A stretch of 36,565 nt of DNA, taken from NCBI GenBank assembly GCA_009929275.1, contig SAAW01000011.1:1-36565 (forward strand), given 5' to 3'. Each line of letters opens with the position of its first letter. Position 1 is the stretch's first letter. The notes under the pieces were generated by a model. That model was not told the DNA's origin and did no database searches. It saw nothing but the letters and a program-made list of their open reading frames with translations. Source of the DNA: Clostridia bacterium (GTDB lineage Bacteria; Bacillota; Clostridia; Christensenellales; UBA1242). Shown one piece after another: positions 3,507 to 28,902 of the stretch. Made by a program: the position numbers and the translations under genes.

Positions 3507-6500
3507 CTATTTTTTGTTATTTTCGTCGTCTTTGTTTGGGCTCTCAAACTCATTTTTATATTTTTCAAGTCTTGCTCGATATTCTTCATTGTTGATTTTA
3601 TTATATGCACTTAAACGCGCTTGATGCCTGTTTCTTTTCCTTACAATTGAAACGGCGACAGAGAGCAAAATTAAACAAACTATGATTGTAACAACTGTAT
3701 AAAAAATGTTAATATTGCTGGCTATTGTCACTCTAATGTCTTCATCGGCACTGATCCCATCGAGTGATTTTGCAAAGACAAAATATTCAAACATATTGAG
3801 TTTATATTCATCTTCAAGCACCGATGTGTCCACGACAGTTCCATATGATATCTGCACTTGAAATTCATTTCCGTCTTCCATAATGAATGTTATGGTGTAG
3901 ACATTTGGAGTGTAACAAGCCAAGATTGTGCGGTCTTGCGTGGCGTTTGTAATGTTTATCGTGACATTCCAAACAGGGTCGGTTTCATCGAAAAATTCTT
4001 TCACAGGAATTTCGGGAAAATTTTCAAAAAGAAGATTTTCTCCGTGTGTCAAACTAACTGTTTCCACCAAAATACCGTCAGCAACAAAGTTTATCGTATA
4101 AGTATTTACAACGACGTCAAAAACAGTCAATTCAAAATCATCTGTCACATTTGAGATTGTGTAGCGGTTTTTGATTCCGTCTTCGTCGTCTGTGGCGATT
4201 TGCTGGGGAGTTATTTCCACTTCGTTGCCACCTGTTTGCCAAACGACGCACACTTTCATTGTTGCATAGGATTTATTATAGGCTGAAGATAGATTAATCT
4301 CAAAAGTGTAGTCATTTCCATAATCTATAAAAGTTGAATCTGCGTTGAGCGCATAAGAAGTGCTTTGTGAAGGCAAAGCAACTGAAAAAGTTTTAATTTG
4401 CCACTTGGCAAAAAGATTTTTGATTCCAGTTGAACCCTGTGTAATTTGGGTGATTTGCGTGCCTGAAAAATCACTGTTCTCATAATATCCCATAAAGTCA
4501 TATCCCACTCTTGTTGGGGTTATGAGCGAAAATGTTTGAGTTAAAATTGTATAGGACGTTTGGGCTGTTGTGCCACTTATGCTTCCGCCGTTTAAATTAT
4601 AATATATTCTATATGAATTAAGTGCCATATTTGCTTTAAATTTTGTGTTTTCCTCGATGATTTCGCTTAAGATGTTTTCAACTGTCGTCCAATTTTCGTC
4701 ATCAATTGATTTCTTCCAATTATTGAATGTATAACCCACTTTGGTTGGAGTCGCGTCAATGCCATCTGGCAAAGTGCCGACTTGGTCAAAATGCGTGACA
4801 GTTTTGGTTCTTGTGATTGAATTTTCCTCGATGATAAAAGTCACCACATAATTTCTGTATGATATAGTGTAAGAACTTCCCTCACTCACTGTAACTCTAT
4901 AATTTTCATTTTGTGACTCGGCAGTGATTTGATAATTCCCCGCACGAGTGGTGTTTGAGATGAGTCTGTCTTCATCTTCATAGCAAAGATATGTGAGTTC
5001 AAGGCTGTCACCCGTCACAAAATTCACTTCTGTCCCGTCTTCGAATTCGTATGAAACAGTGTCAAAAGTGATTTCACCATAGTAATTTTTAAGCAAAATT
5101 CCATATTCATCTTTTAGGTTTATAATCTTAATCTTAACACCGACAGGATTTATTTCAAAAATATGTTCGGTGCTGTCCAAAATAAAATCATAATTGTTTG
5201 AAAGACTGCTTGCGAGTGCAAGTGTGCCGATTGAAATTACATACTCGCCGATATTTTCACCACTTTCACGCGAAAGCAACCCCGTGAAGTCCGCAGTGTC
5301 TGAAAACACAAACCCCAGAGTTGAGAATGTTAAAACAGGGTCATTTTTGCCATATAATTTACTTTGATTGTCATTTGGAATGACGGTTAGAGTCTTCCTT
5401 GTAATCTCAAAAGTTATTTCATTATCACTATCTAAGACCAAAGTATAGTTGTTTGCCAAAAAATTCTCGTTATCAACAAGCACAAGAGTTCCAATTAAAA
5501 AGAAATATTCGCCGACATTTTCACCCGTTTGCCTTGAAAGACTGCCCGAAAAAGCAGGGACTTCATTTGAAATTTGTCCGCTATACACAAAAGAAAAACT
5601 TTCGCTTTCGCCATAGATTTTGCTTTGCTCCGCGTTAGGAGTCACAGAGAGTTGGATTGGTGAAATGGTAATCTTCGCCGTTTCATATTTTGGCGCATAA
5701 TTTTCTTTTAAAAATTCAAAACAAATATAATATTCTCCGCAATTTATTTTGCCAATATTTTCATTGCTTGACGTCCCTTCATTAAAGGCGTCACTTTTTG
5801 AAGACACTTCGCAATATCTCACAGTGTATTCTTCTTCGTCTTCTTCACCAAAATTTGGACTCAAAAAGTGAAGTTCTCCATTATAACTATCACTGATATC
5901 GGTGACAAAAGAGTCGGTTATTGTGCCACTATAAATTGTGAAATAGACTATGTTAGAATAAATTTCAAGGGTGTAATTTTCTTTTAAAAAAGGTGAATTA
6001 TCAACGGGTTCGAGCGAGCCTAATGTAATTTGATAGTTGCCAGCATCTTCGCCAGAGATTCGACTTAAACTGCCCGAAAAAGCAGGCGTTTCGCCCGAGA
6101 TTGAGTTGGAAATTGTGAAAGTAAGAGTGGGGTCATCTTCTTCATAGATTTTGCTATGCCCAGTGTTTGGAGTGATTATCAAAATGCGTGGAATAATCTC
6201 AAAAAACTTTGTTTCTTGCGCAAAAATAACTTCATAGTTATCTTTATAAAATCCGCTTTCCGCGTCGTCACTTTTTATTATATCCCCAAAAAGAGAAATG
6301 GCATATTCGCCCACATTTTCGCCACTTTCACGAATGAGAGTTGCCGAAACATTTGGACTTTGTGTTCCCTCTGTGCCAGAAAAATGATAGGTGAGAGCGG
6401 GGTCTGGGTCGCCATAGTGTTTTGTCAGTTCGTCAGCGACGACATAGAGAGTTTTTGGAGTGACTGTGTATTTGACTCCTGAAACAAAAGATATAGCATA

Positions 6501-8585
6501 GTTTGAAACTAAAAAGTTATTCTTATTGATTAAAGTCAGATTATTTTGAATGATGCTATATTCCCCAACATTATTTAGCCCTGACGAACTGAAATTCTGC
6601 ACAGAAAGCACGCCCGAAGAATTGACGCTTTCGCCAGAAACAAGCCCTGAAAGTGCCCACATTGGCAGAACATAAGACTCGCCATAGACACCCGTGACAG
6701 CATTCGGAGTGATTAAAAGAGATTTTGGGTTAATCCTAATCTCAACTTGCTCTAAAACTGTGCTGTAAAAATCTGCTGTAATCTTAATATAAACTGTGTA
6801 GGACGACACATTTCCCGAAACAATTTTGACATTTTTAATGTTTGGCAAAGTGGAAGAATAGTTGATTCCGTCTAGGCTGTATGTGACATCAAAAGTGGAC
6901 GGGGTGATGACGGAAACACTTGGGTTGTGGAGTAGCCCATCATAAGTGTAGGTGCCACCTGTCACTTCATATGTCATATCACTAAGGTCATATTTTGTTT
7001 GTATTTTCATTGGGATAACACATTCACTCGTGGTATTTTCAGTGCTTGCGCCATAGATTGTCCACGAAGTTGAAGGTTGTTGAGAAAGATATGTCACATA
7101 TGAAATATTTTGATTTGGGTTATTCGCCATATAATACAGAATTCCGTCGTCCACTTCAATGACAACGGCAAAAAAGTCCCCGTTAAGGCGTATGTCTTCT
7201 TCCACTTCAACAGTGTAATATCCCGTTTGATTTGCTGAAAAAAGATATTCGTCGCCCGAAGTTGCGAAAGAATTTTTTAATGCCACTTTATTGCTAAAAT
7301 TGTTCTTTATGCTTATTTGCGAATTGCTTGTCAGTCCATTTAATATGTAGACTCTAAAATTTGTGGTATCATAATTTTTATAAGAATTGTCATTTATATT
7401 TTTTACAACGCACATCGTGGGAACTTTAATTCGAGAGATATATTGGTTTTCAAAATTTGAGTCGATTTGATATATATTCGCAAGATATGCTGTGTTTGAA
7501 TAGGAATAGTAGGAAGTGTAGTAGACACTGTGAGAACTGTCGAAAGTGACAAATTGATTTTGATAGCCAGAGCCCGACATATTGTCATATTCAATGTAGT
7601 CTGTCAAATTCTCTCCCATACGAGTGAACCCGCAGACATTATCTTCAACAAATCTGTCATCATAAGATATGTAGAAAAATCCGCCATTCCCAAAAGTTTC
7701 ACCATAAGAATTTTGGGCAATATATGCACCTGTGTGACCATTAATCGTAACGTTGTCGTCCCACCCGACCAAAGTTACCATATGGTTTGATGATGTTTGA
7801 GTGGTGTTGCCATAATAATAATAAATATAGTTTGCTATGTATGTATTGTTAAAATACATTGACGCAGTCACTGCTCCATATGTTTTAATATGGTTTTTGA
7901 TGCTGTTTCTGTTTGCCAAAATCTTTGCTTCTGTGACACTGTCTGCAATGCCATTTGCATTGTCATAAAACTCAATCGAATTTCTTGATGGGAAATAATA
8001 ACTTTCGAGCGCGCTGAACCCCGATATTACCCTCTCGTTTGAAGTTAGTCCTGCACCATAAAAGTTCGCAAGTTGCTCGTTTGAAGCAGAACTCCAAGCA
8101 TTAATTGCACTCATACCTGATGTTTCCCACGACTGCTCGTTCACAGGCCCATTGTCACTGGAAAAATATTCATATGCCACTTCAAACGCACCACCACCAA
8201 GGCTGTCCCACCCGCGAGATGTCACAAAAACATTATAGGCAAGGTCTAGTTCTGAAAAATTGAGAGGGACACTTTTGTTGACAAGTCCTGTTGTATAAAG
8301 GGTCGTTTCAAGGGCTGTTATGGACGAAAAAGCCCAGCATAAGTCGGATTGCAATTGATTCTCAACATTTGCAGTCAGCCCCGTTGAATTATTGGGGAAA
8401 TTTATTAGACTTGTGTTGTATAAAAAATATTCGCTTGCGAGTTCACCCTGTGAAGTTGTGTTTGAAGAAGTCTGTTCGGCAACAACAAATGAGGGAGAAA
8501 AAGCAAAATTAACGGAAAAAAAAGAGATCATAAAAAATGCAATTAAGAATAAAAACATCAGTTTTTTATGTTCACTCTTTTGCAT
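3507..8585 (-). CDS. secreted C1A (papain-like) cysteine protease with lectin-like region, MBG-like repeats, InlB/Listeria-Bacteroides-type repeat and C-terminal TM anchor
   Basis: N-terminal hydrophobic signal; NQLQSDLCWAFS (Cys with Gln at -6), SNHMVTLVGWDDN (His), YIAQNSYGETFGNGGFFYISYDD (Asn); repeated PNxxQSKxYG...GSLSRxxGENVGEY modules; YYNLNGGSISG...GYDFMGYYENSDFSG...LFAKW; terminal TM VVTIIVCLILLSVAVSIVRKRNRHQ. GGAGGAAAA precedes the ATG. Confidence 0.88.
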   Translation of the reverse strand: MQKSEHKKLMFLFLIAFFMISFFSVNFAFSPSFVVAEQTSSNTTSQGELASEYFLYNTSLINFPNNSTGLTANVENQLQSDLCWAFSSITALETTLYTTGLVNKSVPLNFSELDLAYNVFVTSRGWDSLGGGAFEVAYEYFSSDNGPVNEQSWETSGMSAINAWSSASNEQLANFYGAGLTSNERVISGFSALESYYFPSRNSIEFYDNANGIADSVTEAKILANRNSIKNHIKTYGAVTASMYFNNTYIANYIYYYYGNTTQTSSNHMVTLVGWDDNVTINGHTGAYIAQNSYGETFGNGGFFYISYDDRFVEDNVCGFTRMGENLTDYIEYDNMSGSGYQNQFVTFDSSHSVYYTSYYSYSNTAYLANIYQIDSNFENQYISRIKVPTMCVVKNINDNSYKNYDTTNFRVYILNGLTSNSQISIKNNFSNKVALKNSFATSGDEYLFSANQTGYYTVEVEEDIRLNGDFFAVVIEVDDGILYYMANNPNQNISYVTYLSQQPSTSWTIYGASTENTTSECVIPMKIQTKYDLSDMTYEVTGGTYTYDGLLHNPSVSVITPSTFDVTYSLDGINYSSTLPNIKNVKIVSGNVSSYTVYIKITADFYSTVLEQVEIRINPKSLLITPNAVTGVYGESYVLPMWALSGLVSGESVNSSGVLSVQNFSSSGLNNVGEYSIIQNNLTLINKNNFLVSNYAISFVSGVKYTVTPKTLYVVADELTKHYGDPDPALTYHFSGTEGTQSPNVSATLIRESGENVGEYAISLFGDIIKSDDAESGFYKDNYEVIFAQETKFFEIIPRILIITPNTGHSKIYEEDDPTLTFTISNSISGETPAFSGSLSRISGEDAGNYQITLGSLEPVDNSPFLKENYTLEIYSNIVYFTIYSGTITDSFVTDISDSYNGELHFLSPNFGEEDEEEYTVRYCEVSSKSDAFNEGTSSNENIGKINCGEYYICFEFLKENYAPKYETAKITISPIQLSVTPNAEQSKIYGESESFSFVYSGQISNEVPAFSGSLSRQTGENVGEYFFLIGTLVLVDNENFLANNYTLVLDSDNEITFEITRKTLTVIPNDNQSKLYGKNDPVLTFSTLGFVFSDTADFTGLLSRESGENIGEYVISIGTLALASSLSNNYDFILDSTEHIFEINPVGVKIKIINLKDEYGILLKNYYGEITFDTVSYEFEDGTEVNFVTGDSLELTYLCYEDEDRLISNTTRAGNYQITAESQNENYRVTVSEGSSYTISYRNYVVTFIIEENSITRTKTVTHFDQVGTLPDGIDATPTKVGYTFNNWKKSIDDENWTTVENILSEIIEENTKFKANMALNSYRIYYNLNGGSISGTTAQTSYTILTQTFSLITPTRVGYDFMGYYENSDFSGTQITQITQGSTGIKNLFAKWQIKTFSVALPSQSTSYALNADSTFIDYGNDYTFEINLSSAYNKSYATMKVCVVWQTGGNEVEITPQQIATDDEDGIKNRYTISNVTDDFELTVFDVVVNTYTINFVADGILVETVSLTHGENLLFENFPEIPVKEFFDETDPVWNVTINITNATQDRTILACYTPNVYTITFIMEDGNEFQVQISYGTVVDTSVLEDEYKLNMFEYFVFAKSLDGISADEDIRVTIASNINIFYTVVTIIVCLILLSVAVSIVRKRNRHQARLSAYNKINNEEYRARLEKYKNEFESPNKDDENNKK

Positions 8586-15996: not shown

Positions 15997-17634
15997 TTAT
16001 TCAACCGATAAAATGTAGTAATAAACTGGTTGTCCTCCGCAAACTGCATTGAATTCGCACTGAGGATATATGTTTTGAAGTTTCTCTTGAAGTTTTAAAG
16101 CGTCTTCCTCTTTAATGTCGGTGCCATAAAAAAGTGTGACATTAACGGTGTTGTCGTCGAGAAGTTTGTCCACAAGCCCTTGAACAGTCTCCGTCACTTC
16201 CTTGCCTTTTGCCAAAATAGAACTGTTGTCCAGCCCAATGATCTCGCCGACACTGAGGTCAAATCCGTCAACGTGGGTGTCCCTCACTGCATATGTCACA
16301 CTGCCCGTTTTCACATTTTGCATTGATTCCATCATTGCCTCGGTGTTTTCCTCCACAGTTGCATCTGGGTTGAAAGCAAGACAAGAGGAAATGCCCTCTG
16401 GAATGCTCTTTGTTGGAATGACGACAATATTTTTCTTTGTCAGGTCTTTTGCTTGCTCGGCGGCAAGAATTATATTTTTGTTGTTTGGAAGCACAAAGAC
16501 AGTGTCGGCATTCACTTTGTCCACTGCTTCCACAATGTCATTTGCACTTGGGTTCATCGTCTGCCCGCCTTTGATGATATAGTCCACCATTAAATCTTTG
16601 AAAAGGACAGAAAAACCATCGCCAGCGGCAACTGAAACAATCCCCATTGGCTTTGAAAGTTCTTTTTTGTTTTTCTCTTTGAGAAGTTCTCTGTTTTGTT
16701 CGAGCATATTTTCAATCTTAACATTGGTTATCTCGCCAAGTTCAAGAGCAAAACCTAAGGCTTTGTTTGGCTCATTGCTGTGGACGTGGACTTTGACAAG
16801 GCTTAAGTCGCCAATGCAAATGACAGAATCGCCAAGTTCGACAAGGCGTTCGCGAAGTTTGTCAATGTCGCTCTGAGTGGTCTTTTTGTGCATATTTATT
16901 ATCATATACTCTGTGCAATAAGCAAATTGAATCTCTGCAAGATCGACAATGTTTGAATGAATACTTTTGTCTTTTTCGTAGGCACTGACAGGGTCGATTG
17001 CCTCTTCGGTGAGAGCGTCGTCGTTAGTAAGGGCCTTATAAAACCCTGTGAAAATGACGAGAAGTCCTCTGCCACCAGCATCGACAACTCCTGCTTTTTT
17101 AAGCACAGGCAACAATTCAGGTGTTTGAAGCAAAATTTCTTCGCCTTTATCAAGAACATCTTTCAAAAAAGTTTCAAAATCGCTGTATTTCTTGCAAGAA
17201 CTCTGTGCATATTCACTCATAACTCGCACAACTGTGAGAATCGTGCCCTCTTTTGGCTTCGTGACTGCTTTGTAGGCAATGTCGGCACCTTCTTTGATTG
17301 CCCTTGCAAAATCTTTTGTTTTGAGTTCGGTGCATTGACGAAAAACCGTCGCCATTCCTTTCAAAATTTGAGAAAGAATAACCCCCGAATTTCCTCTGGC
17401 TCCTCGAAGAGCGCCTTTTGTGATTGCTTCTGAAAGTGAGTCGAAGTTATTGTTAACACATTCGTTCACTTCTTTTAAAGCAGATTTGAAAGTCAAATTC
17501 ATATTTGTGCCTGTGTCGCCGTCTGGCACTGGAAAAACATTTAATGAATCCACATATTGTCTATTTTCTTCGAGCAATTTTGACGCCACGAGTATCATTT
17601 TTCTGAACATTGCTCCGCTTATTGTTTTTTGCAA
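15997..17634 (-). CDS. fakA: DAK (DhaL) domain, FakA/YloV-type fatty acid kinase family protein
   Basis: LNVFPVPDGDTGTNMNLTFKSAL, GARGNSGVILSQILKG, DAGGRGLLVIFTGF; TTG start with GGAGGGG SD. Confidence 0.9.
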   Translation of the reverse strand: MQKTISGAMFRKMILVASKLLEENRQYVDSLNVFPVPDGDTGTNMNLTFKSALKEVNECVNNNFDSLSEAITKGALRGARGNSGVILSQILKGMATVFRQCTELKTKDFARAIKEGADIAYKAVTKPKEGTILTVVRVMSEYAQSSCKKYSDFETFLKDVLDKGEEILLQTPELLPVLKKAGVVDAGGRGLLVIFTGFYKALTNDDALTEEAIDPVSAYEKDKSIHSNIVDLAEIQFAYCTEYMIINMHKKTTQSDIDKLRERLVELGDSVICIGDLSLVKVHVHSNEPNKALGFALELGEITNVKIENMLEQNRELLKEKNKKELSKPMGIVSVAAGDGFSVLFKDLMVDYIIKGGQTMNPSANDIVEAVDKVNADTVFVLPNNKNIILAAEQAKDLTKKNIVVIPTKSIPEGISSCLAFNPDATVEENTEAMMESMQNVKTGSVTYAVRDTHVDGFDLSVGEIIGLDNSSILAKGKEVTETVQGLVDKLLDDNTVNVTLFYGTDIKEEDALKLQEKLQNIYPQCEFNAVCGGQPVYYYILSVE

Positions 17635-17701: not shown

Positions 17702-18052
17702 TTAGACCCGAACACCAATGACTTTGATATTGACTGCGTCAACAATCATTCCAGTAAACTTCTCTACGCTATACTTAACTGTGCTTTTTAAACTATCAGC
17801 AACCGCTGTGATTGAAATGCCATATTTAAGGATAACGTTTAAGTCCACTGTTATGTGATTGTTCACACTGACAATCTTTACGCCCCGTGCAAAGGATCTG
17901 TTTTTGAAAAGTTCGCCAAAATTTTCCTTCATACTCTTCGAAACAAGGTCAACGACACCATAGCATTCAAGCGCATTAAACCCAGCAACAACCGCAATGG
18001 CATTGTTGTCTATTGTTATGTCTCCAAAAGCATTAGAAGTTTTTACGAACAT
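17702..18052 (-). CDS. Asp23/Gls24 family envelope stress protein
   Basis: 116 aa, ITIDNNAIAVVAGFNALECYGVVDLV...GVKIVSVNNHITVDLNVILKYGISI; immediately upstream of the DAK gene. Confidence 0.93.
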   Translation of the reverse strand: MFVKTSNAFGDITIDNNAIAVVAGFNALECYGVVDLVSKSMKENFGELFKNRSFARGVKIVSVNNHITVDLNVILKYGISITAVADSLKSTVKYSVEKFTGMIVDAVNIKVIGVRV

Positions 18053-18160: not shown

Positions 18161-18250
18161 TTATTGTTCAATTTTTATGTAATGTTTTTTAAAAAGCAAC
18201 TTCAAAAATATTCCTAGTCCTTTTGGGGCTTTTATGCAATATATTTTCAT
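18161..18250 (-). CDS. spoVM: SpoVM-like 29-aa sporulation peptide (not in the supplied ORF track)
   Basis: ATG AAA ATA TAT TGC ATA AAA GCC CCA AAA GGA CTA GGA ... TAA = MKIYCIKAPKGLGIFLKLLFKKHYIKIEQ. Recalled B. subtilis SpoVM is MKFYTIKLPKFLGGIVRAMLGSFRKD; Pro9 is conserved. GAGG SD upstream; locus rpe-X-asp23-yloV. Confidence 0.85.
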   Translation of the reverse strand: MKIYCIKAPKGLGIFLKLLFKKHYIKIEQ

Positions 18251-18272
18251 TGACAGACCTCTTTTTTAGTCT

Positions 18273-18280
18273 ATTGTATG
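18273..18280 (-). promoter_or_regulatory. sigma-E/K-like -10 element upstream of the spoVM-like ORF
   Basis: Minus strand CATACAAT(A), 22 nt upstream of the ATG; no clear -35 found. Confidence 0.35.
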
Positions 18281-18299
18281 AATAAATATTGTTGTTTTG

Positions 18300-18956
18300 T
18301 TACATTGATTTTAAGTCTTTAACTGTCTTTTCAAGGTTTTTGCTTGAAAAAAGAAAGTTGCCCATAACAACCATTTTCACATTCTTTTCTTTAAGTTTCA
18401 CAATGTTTTCACTGTTCACCCCACCGTCCACTTCAATCACGATTTCCAGTTTTTGACATTTTAGATAAGCGTTAATCTTGGCTAGTCGCTCATATGTTTG
18501 AAGCAAAAACTCCTGCCCACTTTTGCCCGGCGTGACGCTCATCACAAGAAGCAAGTCGCAAAAAGGAATGAGGGGGAGAATGTCGGCTACGGGCGTTTCT
18601 GGCTTAAAACTAAGCCCCGCAAAACAGCCTTTTTTACGAATGTTTGACAAGACTTTTATCAACTTATCCTTATTTTTGAACACTTCAAAATGCACGGTGA
18701 GAATGTTCGCTCCCGCTTTAATATACTTTTTATATATCTTTTCAGGGCTCAAAGTCATCAAATGCACATCAAGCGGTTTTGTGGTCTGTTTTTTAATCTC
18801 AATAACGGTTTTATGAGAAAAAGTCTTTGCTGTCACAAACTCCCCGTCCATAACGTCGCAGTGGATATAGTCGACATCTGTGTCGTTCAATCTCTCAATA
18901 TATTCGTGCAAGTCTTCCAATTTTGGAGGGTTTGTGGATGCTGAAATTAACATCAT
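18300..18956 (-). CDS. rpe: ribulose-phosphate 3-epimerase
   Basis: DVDYIHCDVMDGEFV, DVHLMTLSPEKIYKKYIKAGANILTVHFE, VMSVTPGKSGQEFL, IEVDGGVNSENI. Confidence 0.95.
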   Translation of the reverse strand: MMLISASTNPPKLEDLHEYIERLNDTDVDYIHCDVMDGEFVTAKTFSHKTVIEIKKQTTKPLDVHLMTLSPEKIYKKYIKAGANILTVHFEVFKNKDKLIKVLSNIRKKGCFAGLSFKPETPVADILPLIPFCDLLLVMSVTPGKSGQEFLLQTYERLAKINAYLKCQKLEIVIEVDGGVNSENIVKLKEKNVKMVVMGNFLFSSKNLEKTVKDLKSM

Positions 18957-28503: not shown

Positions 28504-28902
28504 TCACATTGAAAGAATTGAAGTATGTTCCTTGTAATATTTATTTTTCAATAACTTAAATTTTTGAGAGAGGTAGTTAATGTAATATTGCTTTGCTTCC
28601 ACATCAAGCGACGAAAATAAATCTTTATCGATGAGTGCCGAAATCGGGTTTTGCAGAGAGTCATTTTCAATCATTTCGCACACTTTTTGATAGAGTTCCT
28701 CATCATAAGTCCTCTTTTTTTCTTCAAAGTGTGGCCTGATTTCTTGAAGACGTTTTTGCTGACAGATATATTTCGCAAAGCACAGAGTATTGTCAATCCC
28801 ATGAGATTTGTATTCGTTTGTATAGTTGTTTTTCTTTAATCTTTCTTTGGCAATTTTCGCAAGTGTGCATATGTTGCATGACTGCTTTTCATTATTTGGC
28901 AT
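28504..28902 (-). CDS. uncharacterised 132-aa Cys-containing protein
   Basis: AAAGGAG SD before ATG; promoter-like TTGTCA-N16-TATACT (28945-28972); CNIC near the N-terminus and a second C-x5-C (CFAKYIC). Confidence 0.75.
   Translation of the reverse strand: MPNNEKQSCNICTLAKIAKERLKKNNYTNEYKSHGIDNTLCFAKYICQQKRLQEIRPHFEEKKRTYDEELYQKVCEMIENDSLQNPISALIDKDLFSSLDVEAKQYYINYLSQKFKLLKNKYYKEHTSILSM

Follow-up and report, generated by a model that had tools for sequence, protein, structure and literature searches.

The window is the whole stretch of DNA that was analyzed and is 36,565 nucleotides long. It contains a small spoVM-like gene on the minus strand, between rpe and asp23. The gene and the features around it are the following.

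15997..17634, minus strand: yloV (DAK2/FakA-like), beyond asp23; TIGR03599, 7e-186
17702..18052, minus strand: asp23/yloU, the conserved downstream neighbor; 2.6e-27
18161..18250, minus strand: spoVM-like gene, 29 codons plus stop, ATG start, TAA stop, product MKIYCIKAPKGLGIFLKLLFKKHYIKIEQ
18258..18261, minus strand: Shine-Dalgarno sequence GAGG, 7 nt 5' of the spoVM-like ATG
18273..18280, minus strand: -10 element of mother-cell type, CATACAAT; in 65 of 69 family loci a CATA lies no more than 80 nt before the start, against 30 expected from shuffles
18298..18301, minus strand: candidate -35 element AACA of sigma-K type (C at the discriminating position), spacer 17 nt, taken from the family logo
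18300..18956, minus strand: rpe, ribulose-phosphate 3-epimerase, the conserved upstream neighbor; Pfam 1.8e-53

The candidate -35 element of the spoVM-like gene overlaps the rpe stop codon. A preliminary description of this DNA had proposed the ORF, a GAGG ribosome-binding site, and a position between rpe and asp23(yloU)-yloV as expected of spoVM. The coordinates, strand, translation, and stop were as it gave them, the ribosome-binding site was found, and the neighbors were matched by family models. Read at the sequence level, the ORF of 29 residues is a genuine protein-coding gene that carries no annotation. SpoVM is a tiny membrane peptide that serves as a platform for spore coat assembly. 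It is a paradigm of geometric (curvature-based) protein localization.

Two other ORFs of the window were noted. The first (3507-8585, minus strand) encodes 1692 aa and reads like a secreted protein. Its start is signal-like, one stretch (CWAFSS...) is papain-like cysteine peptidase in character, repeats are numerous, and a membrane segment lies at the C terminus. The second (28504-28902, minus strand) encodes 132 aa with paired cysteines and has no significant Pfam or NCBIfam family.

The spoVM-like peptide carries a net charge of +6. Its relatives are mostly 21 to 33 aa long and reach 39 aa with N-terminal extensions in some genera. The B. subtilis SpoVM sequence used as reference was verified against PDB 2MVH. 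Nine of the first 13 residues are identical to it (M1, K2, Y4, I6, K7, P9, K10, L12, and G13), the number given in the preliminary description. Residues K2, I6, and I15 are functional in B. subtilis SpoVM, I6 in SpoIVA binding (PMC5607322). The query has K2 and I6, and its residue 15 is Phe, a hydrophobic residue at a position that is L, I, F, or V in 68 of 69 family loci. Pro9 is invariant in known SpoVM and has a role in membrane curvature (PMC5607322). It is present in the query, in 68/69 family loci, and in 40/40 loci sampled outside the family. Also conserved across the 69 family loci are I3 (68/69), K7 (66/69), and K or R at position 17 (68/69), and position 6 is I, F, V, W, or L in all 69. 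One locus (L088, in G094) has His in place of the otherwise invariant Pro9 (MKIYCFKAHKLFRPLLKLLFHKCYIDM). Residue 5, which is Thr in B. subtilis, is a Cys in 64 of the 69 family loci and in 40/40 sampled from the order's other families.

The C-terminal half had been described as divergent. It is not recognizably SpoVM, yet it is kept within the genus as [KR]K[HY][YF]I. Helical amphipathicity lent no support beyond what composition gives. The hydrophobic moment of residues 10 to 23 was moderate, at 0.37 versus 0.49 in B. subtilis, and unremarkable beside shuffles (P=0.28).

Homology to SpoVM was assessed with a leave-genus-out profile built from other genera only and free of any sequence of the window's genus. 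The window ORF matched at E=3.2e-14 and was the sole significant match among 1053 stop-to-stop segments (next, 0.24). The same profile recovered B. subtilis SpoVM (2.3e-5). Run against all PDB chains, the family profile retrieved SpoVM entries only (2MVH at 3.5e-4 and 2MVJ at 0.25). Within the matched stretch, the 2MVJ chain differs by an Ala as residue 9, and it scored 9 bits below 2MVH. In an NCBIfam scan of 45 homologues, 39 matched SpoVM_broad, and the sole other family was a second SpoVM model. One related family member exceeded the SpoVM_broad cutoff (34.1 versus 31 bits).

The query peptide searched alone against NCBIfam also matched SpoVM models only (E 0.007). Its score, 16.4 bits, is below the curated cutoff of 31 bits, which is an annotation threshold and not a biological property. 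Standard annotation would therefore miss the gene. The lone peptide had no match in Pfam or, with phmmer, in the PDB, because single-sequence searches are insufficiently sensitive. These results support, at the level of homology, the earlier interpretation of the product as a divergent SpoVM.

The peptide was found in 125 of the 147 genomes of the same family that were searched, covering 36/42 genera, at E <= 0.1, a threshold at which some of the weakest matches may be chance. A broader profile adds genomes that were missed at first, for example G001. In the nearest genomes, the rpe-asp23 interval contains ORFs of the same pattern (MKIYCFKVPKCLSFLLKTCLKKHYISFD, MKIICIKAPKGLVPLLKIIFRKHYIKFD, and the GTG-start VKIICIKMPKPLSFLAKLLLKKHYIKLN). 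Members without ATG or with other residues were recovered by reading the intergenic ORFs, not by regular expression. A less divergent family member is MKIYCIKMPKFLSSIIKLIFGKKVLKSD. Within the genus, pN/pS was 0.30 in frame, and the other two frames gave 0.96 and 1.71. Differences at codon positions 1, 2, and 3 numbered 202, 118, and 362. By these measures the frame is under purifying selection. As judged from the profile matches, the divergent SpoVM is present in about 36 of the family's genera and also in other families of the order. Genome sizes in the family are mostly about 0.8 to 1.5 Mb.

Where rpe or asp23 is in reach, the gene sits in most genera beside rpe, asp23-yloV, or both. By gene order, the locus is the ancestral rpe-(thiN)-spoVM-asp23-yloV arrangement with thiN missing. 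In genera g34 and g41, the spoVM-like gene adjoins spoIVA. SpoIVA was found in 141/147 family genomes. The window's own genome encodes a full-length SpoIVA of 492 aa (663 bits to TIGR02836), which ends in NEGKGGIICILL at residue 492 and so has Gly at 486. This residue is implicated in the SpoVM-SpoIVA interaction of B. subtilis (PMC5607322). Across the order, SpoVM-like matches were present in 120/189 genomes with SpoIVA and in 4/28 without it (odds ratio 10, p=8e-7).

The same genome encodes Spo0A, SigA, SigE, SigF, SigG, SigK, SigH, SpoIIID, and SpoIIIAA, an inventory from family searches that is not exhaustive. It also holds two diverged copies of a block of recX-like, acpS-like, and MazF/EndoA-like nuclease genes (L242 and L243, on G000 contigs C77 and C97). 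The two copies could come from a mixture of strains, from a contaminated assembly, or from a duplication.

The preliminary description had named three findings that would speak against it: a frame broken in relatives, no SpoVM model match, and a genome lacking sporulation genes. The frame is kept in relatives, SpoVM models are the sole NCBIfam matches, and Spo0A, SigE, SigK, and SpoIVA were found. It had left a choice between sporulation ancestry or capability and a repurposed amphipathic peptide. Sporulation ancestry or capability agrees with the regulators and SpoIVA, capability in the sense of a genomic prediction; the repurposed peptide is disfavored.

The peptide is also encoded in two incomplete genomes of genus g4 (90% and 76%), in which the searches detected neither SpoIVA nor SpoIIID. 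Either the assemblies have a gap here or the partner has truly been lost. In both (L138 in G003 and L139 in G044), the ORF has a sigma-K-type promoter and is convergent with rpe at 14 to 20 nt. G044 has a strong SpoIIIAA match.

The upstream regions of 64 loci were aligned on CATA. They have A at -19 and C at -18 in 86% of loci, and the -10 element is CATAwwATA. The usual spacer in the family is 16; that of the window is 17. The motif mAC-N14-18-CATA was found at 54/69 spoVM loci versus 3.3 expected from shuffles. It was found upstream of asp23 at 1/35 loci, of yloV at 0/43, and of rpe at 0/26.

The promoters of sigma-K and sigma-E are closely alike; their -35 elements differ by one base pair, the C of sigma-K being read by Arg and the T of sigma-E by Gln (PMC517825). 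The window's own SigE retains the diagnostic Gln (LQSYISR) and its SigK retains the Arg (SRSYISR), so the specificity residues are kept. The sigma-E control used was spoIVA, in place of SpoIIIAA. Counted alike, spoVM promoters were K-type (-35 C) at 51/69 loci and E-type at 5/69, with 3.2 and 5.8 expected by chance. The spoIVA promoters of related genomes were E-type (-35 T, ATA) at 29/49 and K-type at 7/49, with 4.2 and 1.9 expected. The two genes differ in promoter class with Fisher p of about 1e-10 and 1e-9, counts in which loci within one genus are not independent. Outside the family, spoVM was K-type at 10/40 loci and E-type at 1/40; many of the others seem to follow the upstream gene closely.

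SpoIIIAA had no motif before the chosen ORF, perhaps because other genes precede it. In G021, the SpoIIIAA match (C1:424002-424703) lies in an open frame of 24,268 aa, which is probably masked sequence and not a gene. As a sigma-K positive control, TIGR02853 (dpaA) had weak matches only, with no family member above the cutoff. The strict sigma-K motif matched twice in the window's own genome, both times inside an endoribonuclease-like coding ORF.

The spoVM gene of B. subtilis is controlled by sigma-E (PMC517825), and that of C. difficile is sigma-E dependent (PMC5607322). The gene here has a mother-cell-type promoter that looks like the sigma-K type, and a later switch-on is therefore predicted in this order. 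Spore formers of this order may have moved spoVM from the early sigma-E regulon to the late sigma-K regulon while spoIVA remained under sigma-E. We hold this move tentatively, at just short of an even chance.

Three other explanations were weighed. An ORF that arose by chance in AT-rich intergenic DNA would fit a reading frame of 29 codons that is unannotated and has weak single-sequence similarity. We reject it. Chance would not keep the frame across some 36 family genera and beyond under purifying selection (pN/pS 0.30), return E=3e-14 from a profile of other genera, and supply a ribosome-binding site and a promoter. It is also improbable that a SpoVM-derived amphipathic peptide has lost its coat role and been repurposed, for a membrane or envelope function or as a leader peptide of asp23-yloV. 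The divergent C-terminal half, the adjoining asp23-yloV (non-sporulation genes), and the ORF retained in g4 would suit such a peptide. Against it, SpoIVA is nearly universal in the family and lies next to the gene in two genera, and most genomes without SpoIVA lack the peptide. The mother-cell-type promoter precedes the ORF and not asp23, yloV, or rpe, and the gene is not tied to asp23. Repurposing outside sporulation is disfavored because of the SpoIVA linkage and this promoter.

The third explanation bears on timing only. The gene would encode a genuine SpoVM and depend on sigma-E for transcription, like its counterparts in B. subtilis and C. difficile, its K-like -35 element would be a permissive variant, and its timing would be unchanged. 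This is a serious possibility, though on balance we doubt it. The two promoter classes are one base pair apart, and sigma-E also recognizes some sigma-K promoters (PMC517825). The window's spacer is 17 and not 16, and neither dpaA nor the strict-motif matches in its own genome provided an independent sigma-K positive-control gene. Unchanged timing sits poorly with the discriminating base, which is C at 86% of the spoVM loci aligned, when spoIVA has T in 29/49 with 4 expected. The diagnostic Gln and Arg are retained in the genome's own SigE and SigK, and the order's other families also have more K-type than E-type promoters before spoVM (10/40 versus 1/40).

The best explanation is that the gene is the spoVM orthologue in a SpoVM subfamily that is divergent and had gone undetected, with a presumed mother-cell and SpoIVA role and perhaps later timing. 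We give it a probability of about 0.88. It draws, at the level of genomic sequence, on the conserved and selected frame, homology to SpoVM, the locus, co-occurrence and occasional linkage with spoIVA, and the mother-cell-type promoter. The peptide would be made in the mother cell. It would form a strongly basic helix, kinked at Pro9, within the outer membrane of the forespore. Its N-terminal face (K2, I6, and K7) may recruit or anchor the SpoIVA ATPase, in which Gly486 is kept. Anchored SpoIVA would allow the coat basement layer and the cortex to form on the convex forespore surface. With a sigma-K-type instead of a sigma-E-type promoter, the peptide may come into play at a later stage than B. 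subtilis SpoVM does. If spoVM has switched to sigma-K, SpoVM would be a late, post-engulfment component and not the cue by which curvature first draws SpoIVA to the forespore. SpoIVA would then reach its place in some other way, as it does in C. difficile, whose SpoVM is largely dispensable.

SpoVM itself is known. What appears to be new is a widespread divergent subfamily, mostly under annotation thresholds, and the predicted switch of promoter class. Galperin et al. (2012) left open whether distant versions of SpoVM exist in Clostridia in which searches had failed (PMC3533761), and the divergent SpoVM described here would be such a version. Retention of sporulation in reduced genomes has been reported as unexpected for UBA1242 (PMC12306168). 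The gene adds to the evidence that gut Clostridia with genomes of roughly 1 Mb keep the full complement of sporulation regulators. The analysis yields an alignment and a profile, and it predicts, in testable form, that a morphogenetic protein has come under a different sigma factor.

Among known families, NF033436 (SpoVM_broad) is the best and essentially the sole NCBIfam match for 39/45 members, and most members tested singly, the query included, fall under its 31-bit cutoff. Like B. subtilis SpoVM (PDB 2MVH, 26 aa), the peptide is basic, begins MK-x-Y-x-IK-x-PK-x-LG, and has K2, I6, K7, and Pro9. The operon neighbors rpe, asp23/yloU, and yloV are also shared, as is a SpoIVA with Gly486. Unlike B. 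subtilis SpoVM, it has 29 aa, Cys5 for Thr5, Ala8 for Leu8, Gly11 for Phe11, and an unrelated C-terminal [KR]K[HY][YF]I tail, and its promoter is of sigma-K type and not sigma-E type. The C. difficile SpoVM is likewise clostridial, has Pro9 and Ile6, and is encoded by a small, easily missed gene (PMC5607322). It binds SpoIVA in vitro (PMC5607322). Its gene is sigma-E dependent, lies near rpmB, and is largely dispensable (PMC5607322), whereas the gene in the window lies between rpe and asp23 and has a promoter of sigma-K type.
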